NCBI RefSeq assembly: GCF_021283545.2
Contig: NZ_CP128540.1
Span: forward strand, 5,367,501 to 5,431,500
Direction of reading: 5' to 3'
Source: Pseudomonas alloputida
GTDB lineage: Bacteria > Pseudomonadota > Gammaproteobacteria > Pseudomonadales > Pseudomonadaceae
DNA: 64,000 nucleotides
Positions 31,761 through 33,860 of this stretch are shown here, one piece after another (the stretch's first letter is position 1; each line of letters starts with the position of its first letter). Position numbers and translations under genes: made by a program. The notes under the pieces are model-generated. The model made no database searches. It was not told where the DNA came from and saw only the letters and a program-made list of their open reading frames with translations.

Positions 31761-31778
31761 TTCGCGGGTAAACCCGCT
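31761..31778. repeat. Left half of a REP interrupted by the IS110 tandem
   Basis: TTCGCGGGTAAACCCGCT ends at the CT dinucleotide 31777-31778. Joined to the sequence from 33824 (CCTACAGGGC...) it restores a REP with the same core seen elsewhere in the window (for example 34813-34841). This identifies the insertion target. Confidence 0.85.
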
Positions 31779-32124
31779 TCTATCAAACAAAAGATAACCC
31801 ACTGTTCTTTCTAGCGAAAAAAACAGGCGCGCGGGGTCAATGGCGGCGAAGTGTTCACTCTTCTATACGTGGTCACAGCAAGCTGTGCCGACAGGGATTA
31901 ACGCCGATGCCATTTGGGCCACTCTCTCATTCGGGAGCAAAGCAGCACACCAGTGCGGTCTACGGCCTCTTTCCCGCGCATTGGGAACCATAGCAAAGTA
32001 TTCGGCGGCTGACCTACCCGGATCAGTCGGCGAATGCTTTTCTAGATCTCGATGTCAGTGCAGATCTGACGTCATGCGCATCCTGTTTGCTGTGCGACAG
32101 CGCAGCCCGGAAGGGCTGGGTGAT
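31779..32124 (-). mobile_element. Transposase-less IS110-type derivative carrying only the element ends
   Basis: This 346-bp unit has CT on both sides (31777-31778 and 32125-32126). Its first ~35 bases (TCTATCAAACAAAA...) resemble the first ~35 bases of the neighbouring IS110 element. Its last ~300 bases align along their whole length with the non-coding region upstream of that element's transposase, near-identical in the last ~40 bases and clearly diverged in the middle. The transposase gene is absent. It is a MITE-like unit that could be mobilised by an IS110 enzyme acting in trans. Confidence 0.85.
31824..32040 (-). ncRNA. Candidate bridge-type RNA of the transposase-less derivative
   Basis: Read on the minus strand it has the same order as the copy in the full element. 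First a stem-loop region (32001-32034; TTCG/CGAA and CTGA/TCAG pairs), then a loop with heptamer CTCTCAT (31924-31930), equal to the sequence right of this unit (32125-32131). Then a second loop with CTTCTAT (31860-31866), equal to the unit's own first bases with the core (31777-31783). A short CACAGC-AA-GCTGTG hairpin follows. Transcript ends are not visible. Confidence 0.65.
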
Positions 32125-32164
32125 CTCTCATCAAACAAAATGCAACCCATTGTTTTCTAAGCAC

Positions 32165-33493
32165 TCAAGCGGCCACCAGTTGATACCCCAGTTTCCGGGC
32201 TTTGCGAAGCAAAGCCCGGACCTGCCGGTCTTGGCTTCTGGTTTCGAACTCCTCAAGACCTTGTTCAACATAAGCCTGCTTCTTGGTTAACAGGTTGTAC
32301 ACCAGACGTGCCAACTGATGCGCAGTGGCCTTGATGGCGCAGCTGGTATCCATTCGAGTCAGTCTGGCTCGGTGCGATGCGCCAATGAAACCCTTGTCGT
32401 TACGGGCATTGGATGCAGCCTGCTTGAGTGCTTGCGCTGCTCGATTGACTATTTTGGGCCCACCACCTGCCAGTCGATGACCGCCGGAAATTCGGGTAGG
32501 GGGAGCCAGTCCCAACCAAGAGCAGAAGTGCTGTGAGGACGGGAAGCGTGATAGATCTGTACCGATCTCCCCTGCCAGCACTAATGCAGTGTCCACCCCA
32601 ATGGTTGGAATTGCGGTTAGGTCCACGCCAAGAACTTTCCACAAAGTCTGATGCAATACAGTCTGTTGGGCGCCGTTTCGGTGTGGGCTCCGTAAAGGCT
32701 TCTTGGATGGCTCTGGCTTGTTTTGCAGCACCGGCAACTGCTCTAACGCGGCTTTTATGGCGTCGTCACAATCTGCAATTTGCTGCTCCAGGAAGTCATA
32801 GGCAGCCAATTCCTGAGTTAGCGCATGCAAATGCTCGCGCCGCCAATTGCCATGAAGACTCCGAGCGACAGCCTCCTTGCCTGCCTTGATGCGGCGGTCG
32901 GTTAGTTCAGCCAGTTGCACTGGGTCCCGTTCACCTGCGCAGATGGCCCGCAAAATCTTCATGCCAGTTACACCGGAAATATCACTGATGACATTGGCCA
33001 GCTGGATGTTCATTTGGCTCATGGCCTTTTGCATCCGGTTCAGCGTCTGCGCCTGGTCTTTCACTTTGGAAGCACGCTGCCTGACCAATGACCGGACGCA
33101 GCAGGTCAGATCATCGGGGCGGAATGCGCCTCTGAGCAGTCCATGAGTCATCAGCTGCCAGATCCACTGGCAATCCAGCACATCTGATTTACGGCCCGTG
33201 ATTTGCCGAGTTGCTCTGGCATTGACGAGATAAACGTCAAAACCGCGCTCGCTGAGAATCTCGTAAATTGGAATCCAATAAACCCCCGTGGATTCCATGG
33301 CAACGACCTTGATCCCCAGGCTTTCAAGCCAGTTAGCCATCTTGAGCAGGTCGTCAGTAAAGGACGTGAACGACTGGACGGGATTTTCGTGCCGGGGATC
33401 GACCGCCACGAAATGCTCTCGACCACCGACATCGATCGCCGCGCAATCGGGATGGACGACGGTAAAGCGTTGCTTGGAAGGCTTGCGCGCCAT
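32165..33493 (-). CDS. IS110-family DEDD transposase/recombinase
   Basis: It has 442 residues. The RuvC-like N-terminal domain has the full acidic set D21 (AIDVGG), E67 (AMESTG), D104 and D107 (KSDVLD). The C-terminal Tnp_IS116/IS110/IS902 domain carries the likely nucleophile S336 in PPTRISGG. The open frame begins at 33529, but the ATG at 33493 has GAGG at seven bases and starts MARKPSK. No frameshift or missing key residue was seen, so it may be active. Confidence 0.95.
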   Translation of the reverse strand: MARKPSKQRFTVVHPDCAAIDVGGREHFVAVDPRHENPVQSFTSFTDDLLKMANWLESLGIKVVAMESTGVYWIPIYEILSERGFDVYLVNARATRQITGRKSDVLDCQWIWQLMTHGLLRGAFRPDDLTCCVRSLVRQRASKVKDQAQTLNRMQKAMSQMNIQLANVISDISGVTGMKILRAICAGERDPVQLAELTDRRIKAGKEAVARSLHGNWRREHLHALTQELAAYDFLEQQIADCDDAIKAALEQLPVLQNKPEPSKKPLRSPHRNGAQQTVLHQTLWKVLGVDLTAIPTIGVDTALVLAGEIGTDLSRFPSSQHFCSWLGLAPPTRISGGHRLAGGGPKIVNRAAQALKQAASNARNDKGFIGASHRARLTRMDTSCAIKATAHQLARLVYNLLTKKQAYVEQGLEEFETRSQDRQVRALLRKARKLGYQLVAA

Positions 33494-33504
33494 GATGAAT
33501 CCTC

Positions 33505-33740
33505 GCAGGATAAAGGGCGCGCGGGGCACACGGTGGCGAAAGGGTTCACTCTCTCATACGTGGTCACAGCTGAATCAGCTGATGCCTACAGGGACTTCAC
33601 GCCGATACCGTGCGGATCACTCTCCTACGCGGGTGTGCAGACACACACCAGTGCTGGCTACGATCTCTGTCCCGCGCACACGAACCCTAACAAAGCAAAA
33701 GGCGGCTGGCCCTACCGGGCCAACCGCCTTTTCTTTTTCA
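33505..33740 (-). ncRNA. Candidate bridge RNA in the left end of the IS110 element
   Basis: On the transposase strand the order is as follows. A strong hairpin comes first (33697-33732; TGGCCC/GGGCCA inside AAAAGGCGG/CCGCCTTTT). Next is a loop with CTCCTAC (33622-33628) and GCGGGT (33629-33634), whose sequences match the REP on the two sides of the insertion. Then comes a second loop with CTCTCAT (33551-33557), which equals the element's own start with core (32125-32131). This matches the 5' stem-loop, target-binding loop and donor-binding loop order described for IS621. Transcript ends are guesses. Confidence 0.7.
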
Positions 33741-33823
33741 AAATGTCAGCGTCGCTGCGGAACTGAAGCCGTACACCTCATGTTTGCTGCGCGACAGCGC
33801 AGCCCGGAAGGGCTGGGTGATCT

Positions 33824-33860
33824 CCTACAGGGCGGTTTACCCGCGAAAGGGCCGGCCCAG
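33824..33860. repeat. Right part of the REP interrupted by the IS110 tandem
   Basis: CCTACAGGGCGGTTTACCCG and the following CGAAAGGGCCGG continue the REP whose left part ends at 31778. Together they form an inverted REP pair. Confidence 0.8.

Follow-up and report, generated by a model that had tools for sequence, protein, structure and literature searches.

A transposase-less IS110 unit of Pseudomonas alloputida with a predicted bridge RNA and guides of its own, likely moved by the ISPpu9 transposase

In the available text of the literature covered here, bridge RNAs belong to elements that encode the recombinase as well. For IS621, the accessible part of one study states that the two loops of one complex are thought to derive from two RNA molecules (PMC11208158). 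The IS110 element ISPpu9 has been located in REP sequences, with a two-base repeat, according to the text available of its report (PMC1525189). The available part of a 2021 study describes two small RNAs for ISPpu9 of P. putida KT2440, including Ssr9 of about 180 nt, and a sense RNA of that size is expressed from the place corresponding to the unit analysed here (PMC8450116). The Ssr9 segment lies downstream of tnp, has AG joints and end boxes common to ISPpu9, and is found at five of the seven ISPpu9 copies of KT2440 and in three orphan copies, with tandem copies in other strains (PMC8450116). As far as that text goes, the authors regarded Ssr9 as an RNA sponge acting on the antisense Asr9 and left independent movement open (PMC8450116). 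The bridge-RNA paper, in the part available, refers to the ISPpu9 RNAs as presumed modulators of recombinase expression. The sequence-only reading of our locus knew of no name for such a unit; its layout had in fact appeared in print in 2021, as that of the ssr9 segment next to ISPpu9, as the accessible text shows (PMC8450116). Our search of the open PMC literature returned no work that reads Ssr9 as a bridge RNA and none with a transposase-less IS110 unit carrying its own bridge RNA. What appears to be new is therefore the proposal that the ssr9-type unit may be a reprogrammed bridge RNA aimed at the end of its own helper.

The DNA analysed, hereafter the window, is a stretch of 64,000 nucleotides of Pseudomonas alloputida (contig NZ_CP128540.1). 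Loci and genomes are given by our L and G numbers, and guide, flank and end words are written in the direction of the transposase gene (minus strand). The window contains the following features, of which the ssr9-like unit is called the mini-element below:

31777..31778, minus strand: AG core at the right end of the mini-element
31779..32124, minus strand: mini-element (ssr9-like unit), 346 bp, without transposase; ends set by 17 copies and unoccupied sites
31829..31979, minus strand: predicted bridge RNA of the mini-element, outer stem GCGCGGG to CCCGCGC; from the fold and paired changes
31860..31866, minus strand: donor guide of the mini-element, ATAGAAG, equal to its own right end
31924..31930, minus strand: target guide of the mini-element, ATGAGAG
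31995..32040, minus strand: hairpin immediately upstream of the predicted mini-element bridge RNA, counterpart of the terminator-like hairpin of ISPpu9; from the fold only
32125..32131, minus strand: left target ATGAGAG of the mini-element, equal to the right end plus core of ISPpu9
32127..33821, minus strand: ISPpu9 (1695 bp), likely helper; transposase shares 99% identity over 97% with an ISPpu9 family record
32165..33529, minus strand: reading frame of the ISPpu9 transposase (IS110 family), with ATG at 33493; PF01548, PF02371, NF033542
33551..33557, minus strand: donor guide of ISPpu9, ATGAGAG, the same word as the target guide of the mini-element
33622..33628, minus strand: target guide of ISPpu9, GTAGGAG
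33697..33732, minus strand: terminator-like hairpin upstream of the ISPpu9 bridge RNA
33822..33828, minus strand: left target GTAGGAG of ISPpu9, within REP-like sequence

Read on the transposase strand, the mini-element consists of an AG core, a left end, a bridge-RNA-like fold and a right end, which is the IS110 layout. It lies directly 3' of the right end of ISPpu9 in the same orientation, starts with ATCACCC and equals ISPpu9 at 40 of its first 41 bases (the 41-nt A box). Its interior aligns with the non-coding RNA region of ISPpu9, its right end reads GTTTGATAGA, and AG flanks it on both sides. The DEDD transposase gene is absent from the mini-element, as there is no open reading frame of at least 120 aa inside 31779-32124, and is present in the neighbouring ISPpu9, whose transposase carries the Pfam domains PF01548 and PF02371 and matches NF033542; it matches the record 'IS110-like element ISPpu9 family transposase [Pseudomonas putida]' (99% identity, 97% coverage). 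The sequence-only reading had described a 346-bp unit that keeps both ends and the RNA region but has no transposase, and this description holds for 31779-32124. Among five inverted pairs found in the mini-element, none joins both ends. An Rfam search of the unit gave nothing at the gathering level and two weak sub-threshold matches to unrelated families, and no consensus sigma-70 promoter was found, including one created at the joint between ISPpu9 and the mini-element.

We consider it highly probable that this mini-element, which lacks a transposase gene but has a predicted bridge RNA and guides of its own, is moved in trans by the transposase of ISPpu9. The argument starts from the guides. 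At the aligned guide positions, ISPpu9 has GTAGGAG as target guide and ATGAGAG as donor guide, whereas the mini-element has ATGAGAG and ATAGAAG, respectively. In ISPpu9, GTAGGAG is the left flank and ATGAGAG the right end; in the mini-element, ATGAGAG is the left flank and ATAGAAG the right end. The four heptamers first pointed out in the sequence-only reading are located as it gave them (31860-31866 equals 31777-31783, and 31924-31930 equals 32125-32131), and the guides of the two elements differ as their flanks do, as it had claimed. It had also seen that the target-type heptamer matches the flank, and this part stands, but the flank needs to be read differently. An ISPpu9 copy without a mini-element (L038) ends with GTTTGATGAGAG followed by CGGC and runs into REP-like sequence, and ATGAGAG is therefore the right end of ISPpu9 and not made by the mini-element. 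Since the target guide of the mini-element and the right end of ISPpu9 are both ATGAGAG, the mini-element target guide equals the donor end of ISPpu9, and the helper's own right end is the target. ATGAGAG occurs three times in the 64 kb, as the mini-element target guide, as the mini-element flank and ISPpu9 right end, and as the ISPpu9 donor guide; this count is unremarkable (the mean of shuffles is 4.68), and all three are at the predicted places.

The same correspondence is seen across related elements. ISPpu9-like elements in other genomes have the target guides GTGGGAG or GAGGGAG and the donor guides ATGAGAG, ATAAGAG or ATAGGAG, each of which equals the element's own flank and right end wherever both sides lie in the locus. 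In nine elements (four minis, five full elements), mismatches affect 4 of the 63 bases of the target guides and 1 of the 63 of the donor guides, all of them in minis. Shuffled guide pairings equalled the observed fit in 0.005% (target) and 0.04% (donor) of 20000 trials, figures that ignore the relatedness of the elements and describe a pattern rather than strict probabilities. The imperfect guides belong to the P. guariconensis element (two of seven target bases and one donor base mismatched) and to the L107 copy (two of seven target bases). Left out of this test were G060 (L079) and G332 (L073), in which the target guide fits the flank but the right end or the donor guide lies outside the locus. 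Also left out were L077, L080 and L135 (fragments), L100 and L082 (truncated), L039 (deleted), and the plasmid mini-element together with other minis with the same guides. Among related elements, the guides thus change together with flanks and right ends, and the unit looks like the guide-carrying mini-element that the sequence-only reading had inferred. By eye, the alignment of 11 sequences described below gave no clear assignment of the right target and right donor guides.

In the source genome (assembly G000, 6.44 Mb, one contig), we found 17 full-length minis and 10 intact ISPpu9 copies, so that the arrangement in the window is not there by chance. All 11 ISPpu9 left ends (10 intact copies and one truncated) lie at GTAGGAG, while the left flank of the mini-elements is ATGAGAG in 16 of 17 cases and ATGGGAG in one. 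Mini-elements follow 13 of the 15 ISPpu9 right ends; at L038 REP-like sequence follows instead, and at the one remaining end a transposase fragment. The other four of the 17 minis (L031, L032, L036, L037) are not at an ISPpu9 right end, and L039 is an additional, internally deleted mini-element with the flank ATGAGCG. The source-genome copies are 99-100% identical and hence not independent in sequence; their independence lies in their sites. Two loci, L033 (G000 2629.5-2631.1 kb) and L035 (829.1-829.9 kb), hold tandem minis spaced by 3' fragments of the ISPpu9 transposase with AG joints, which suggests one-ended or aberrant recombination. G000 also holds two other IS110 types, with six copies containing 383-aa and four copies containing 393-aa open frames.

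The high number of pairs could also be explained if ISPpu9 and the mini-element hop as one composite, most pairs then stemming from few mini-element insertions. We regard this as possible but rather unlikely; it concerns the pairs and is compatible with trans-mobilisation of the mini-element. A mini-element is attached to nine of the 10 intact ISPpu9 copies, the mini copies are nearly identical, and the authors of the 2021 study suggested, in the text available, that ISPpu9 moves with or without ssr9 (PMC8450116). If loops come from two RNAs, as is thought for IS621 in the accessible part of that work, mixed complexes and composite hops are possible (PMC11208158), and the ISPpu9 target loop together with the mini-element donor loop could send a composite to REP sites. 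A hybrid short element, L075, which contains part of the mini-element donor loop (ATAGAAG) and ends with ATAAAAG, indeed lies at the REP target TGTGGGAG outside the source genome. However, common mixing predicts lone minis at REP sequences, and 0 of the 17 minis of the source genome have a REP left flank, which argues that loop mixing is not common. A composite would moreover account for the copy number only, but not for the lone minis.

Such lone copies are not limited to the source genome. Among 398 Pseudomonas genomes (best two candidates per genome), whole-unit matches were obtained in G000, G102, G124 and G214. A guide-free pattern led to nine stretches: the mini-element is present, whole or cut, in five of them (four Pseudomonas strains), a sixth (P. 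taiwanensis) holds a distant partial relative, and three show no similarity to the mini-element. One of 72,556 plasmid records holds a 100% identical copy; three patterns gave no match in viral contigs, and no copy was found in phages. Outside ISPpu9 right ends, we count 11 distinct sites: L031, L032, L036, L037 (the same as L070 and L106), L039, L071 (L103), L072 (L104), L082 (partial), L100 (truncated), L107 and L148; L075, L076 and L105 hold parts of the mini-element only and are not counted as sites. Compared with ATGAGAG, the flank agrees at seven of seven bases at six sites, at six at four sites and at five at one site. Deviating flanks seen among the copies include ATGGGAG, ATGAGCG, ATGAGGG and GTAAGAG. 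The check proposed from the window alone, whether the target heptamer tracks the flank of each further copy, turned out positive: independent copies were found within the one genome, in species other than this one and on a plasmid, and where their sites were read, ATGAGAG or a close variant stands to the left. At three of the 11 sites (L032, L082, L100), the mini-element lies at the right end of a short REPIN-bearing element ending with ATGAGAG or ATGAGCG, of which only the right half is visible at L032. L037 and L070/L106 (G102 and Pseudomonas sp. LB-090624) have the left flank in common and differ in their right flanks, suggesting a later rearrangement next to the element. From its open frames, we take the surroundings of L107 to be a rearranged group II intron region and not a clean site.

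The copy on a plasmid bears directly on a second explanation, namely that Ssr9 is a regulatory small RNA gene, which dampens the ISPpu9 transposase by pairing with Asr9 and moves as a passenger only. According to the available text, Ssr9 and Asr9 form duplexes in vitro and reporter activity is about 30% lower (PMC8450116). We nevertheless judge this explanation improbable as a full account. Lone copies occur at ATGAGAG away from ISPpu9, and one of them (L148, NZ_CP124659.1), 100% identical to the copy in the window, lies on a large plasmid of the clinical P. aeruginosa isolate 2022CK-00068, on which a near-identity search found no ISPpu9. In addition, a sponge does not need two guides that match a flank and its own end. 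Should Ssr9 have diverged from a copy of the ISPpu9 bridge RNA, partial complementarity to Asr9 would be expected in any case, Asr9 presumably being antisense to that region of ISPpu9. Guide and regulatory roles of Ssr9 could coexist.

There are 17 copies of the mini-element in G000, one each in G102, G124 and G214, and two in G419 (one truncated), a contrast that agrees weakly with helper dependence, as drafts lose IS copies. A close transposase was found in none of seven other genomes linked to the mini-element, a weak negative, since these are mostly drafts, which hide IS copies. A partial relative with 72% identity is listed from Pseudomonas sp. 10-1B, and none was found in its assembly.

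Unoccupied sites show that the target word exists before the mini-element arrives. On the plasmid, the mini-element is preceded by GTCCAATGAGAG and followed by GCCGGTC, and its left flank (401 bases) is present whole and 100% identical in eight other records. Three of these were read: in L149 and L151, GTCCAATGAGAGGCCGGTC is uninterrupted and continues as the right flank over the bases printed, and L150 has the same site and diverges thereafter. A 91% identical record, L152 (pCAR1), has ATGAGGC at this position. The plasmid insertion is a clean AG-core event with a perfect guide match. The gene at which the mini-element lies is annotated in sister records as hypothetical or as Xre/MbcA/ParS antitoxin-like. 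The L031 site, whose unoccupied form was found by protein searches and contains ATGAGA, is empty in G137 and G078, where the flanks agree fully over the printed 80 and 60 bases. The unoccupied form reads CTATGAGAAGCGG (ATGAGAAG), one base more than the occupied form, CTATGAGAG followed by the mini-element and CGG, so that the match is bulged and the event was not cleanly conservative. A GA core in place of AG would fit L031, but the plasmid site and ISPpu9 in REP sequence fit AG, and it was rejected. Homologs of the gene at L103 have TTCAATGAGAAC in four of 14 loci printed (the occupied L121 set aside), which supports a pre-existing ATGAGA without being a clean empty site. For five non-ISPpu9 sites, a joined-flank search of 57 relatives (best six candidates per genome) gave no intact unoccupied site among the matches listed; those spanning the L032 join turned out to be REP repeats, the longest of which (G009) lacks ATGAGAG. 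The target word thus lies outside the unit, as the sequence-only reading had assumed. That ATGAGAG is instead the left terminus of the mini-element, as its position in front of 16 of 17 copies would allow, is scarcely credible: it is refuted by the unoccupied plasmid site, which reads ATGAGAG, and is also at odds with the ISPpu9 copy that ends with ATGAGAG where no mini-element follows, with the ATGAGA of the empty L031 site and with the deviating flanks listed above.

The fold of the predicted bridge RNA is conserved. In an alignment of 11 sequences (four minis and seven full elements), the outer stem, target stem and donor stems are paired in 96% of 352 cells, compared with 33-49% in slid versions, in a structure that was partly derived from the same 11 sequences. 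Double-sided changes occur in eight of 32 pairs (4.3 in shuffles, 0 of 500 reaching eight), and three donor-stem pairs show a compensatory change between the minis and all seven full elements. Further pair types are not in excess (14 compared with 15.9 in shuffles), and the minimum energy of the mini-element fold is ordinary (z -0.73). The predicted order in the left end is a target loop followed by a donor loop, as in bridge RNAs. The minis form one clade with a support of 100/100 and are 68-76% identical to the seven full elements in the bridge-RNA region (72-76% for the mini-element of the window). There is next to nothing left for the idea that the mini-element, which retains both IS110 ends, is a decayed ISPpu9 copy that arose by in-place deletion and was then spread through homologous recombination: this identity and the separate clade refute an in-situ deletion of the neighbour, the outcome that the sequence-only reading had named as fatal to its proposal, and relatives are found in other species and on a plasmid.

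Taken together, we favour trans-mobilisation, a step suggested by the sequence-only reading, infer that the ISPpu9 enzyme carries it out, and propose the following mechanism. Most likely, the ISPpu9 enzyme binds the RNA of the mini-element, which would thereby act as a guide beyond mere regulation, and the donor loop selects the mini-element's own joint. Because the donor guide ATAGAAG matches the right end of the mini-element, the RNA would pick a mini-element circle, if one is formed, as donor. The target loop would select ATGAGAG, and since this word matches the right end of ISPpu9, the mini-element would be sent to ISPpu9 right ends. Further destinations could be short REPIN-bearing elements with the same end and occasional look-alike sites. 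Insertion at an ISPpu9 right end recreates ATGAG-AG-ATCACCC, presumably the expected joint of an ISPpu9 circle, which might in turn be used as a donor; this could account for the tandem arrays with transposase fragments at L033 and L035. More generally, we think it probable, if with somewhat less assurance, that Ssr9-type units are RNA-only transposon satellites, which consist of ends and a reprogrammed bridge RNA, enslave an IS110 recombinase and home to the donor end of their host element.

A different kind of short element was seen in the same searches. These elements of about 160-225 bp (L084, L086, L087, L092, L093, L095, L096, L180, L181, L183, L185, L186) have an ISPpu9-like left end and the right end ATGAGAG or a near match; several contain a REPIN-like palindrome, and they mostly lie at the REP targets TGTAGGAG or TGTGGGAG. 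No bridge RNA was found in those of the short ISPpu9-ended elements that were tested. G389 has at least 42 matches to the mini-element query, mostly to the left end (40 of 101 candidates scored); nine stretches were fetched and the right end was traced for L180 only. The short elements appear to be a second class of non-autonomous IS110 elements, one that lacks guides.

A natural unit with nothing but a bridge RNA would show that evolution parts the guide from its enzyme, that nature rewrites guides independently of the protein, and that transposons guided by RNA have parasites that are themselves RNA-guided. It also gives the published small RNA Ssr9 a second reading that can be tested. Two natural guide sets seemingly used by one enzyme in one cell would be useful for studying the mixing of target and donor loops between RNAs.

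Classical MITEs possess terminal inverted repeats and no guide RNA, whereas the mini-element has no terminal inverted repeats. In the accessible parts of the reports on MITEs of other IS families, these resemble the mini-element in being short, lacking a transposase and likely being mobilised by the parental IS (PMC9769881, PMC11578231). The closest match is the ssr9 A-B segment of KT2440, which likewise follows the ISPpu9 tnp on the same strand, has AG joints and a left end shared with ISPpu9, and occurs in orphan and tandem copies. It differs in that it was published as a regulatory RNA, with no guides, target or bridge RNA proposed in the text available (PMC8450116). According to the same text, the 41-nt A boxes and the 14-nt B boxes are each identical in KT2440 (PMC8450116), whereas here the A boxes of the mini-element and ISPpu9 agree at 40 of 41 bases and the right ends (31779-31792 and 32127-32140) at 11 of 14. 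As the B boxes differ in this way, the unit in the window is filed as ssr9-like and not as ssr9, and the KT2440 unit may be a sister variant of it, a likeness judged from the layout. The seekRNAs of ISEc11 and ISEc21 are comparable in that, in the part of the report available, guide RNA and transposase can work in trans and cargo with intact ends moves, but these were engineered constructs and not a natural transposase-less unit (PMC11187229). Similar to the mini-element, the IS621 bridge RNA system has, in the available text, an RNA in the left end with a target loop followed by a donor loop, guides that include the dinucleotide core, and left guides that pair with the bottom strand (PMC11208160, PMC11208158). 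IS621, as described there, has its own recombinase, whereas the mini-element has none and targets its likely helper.
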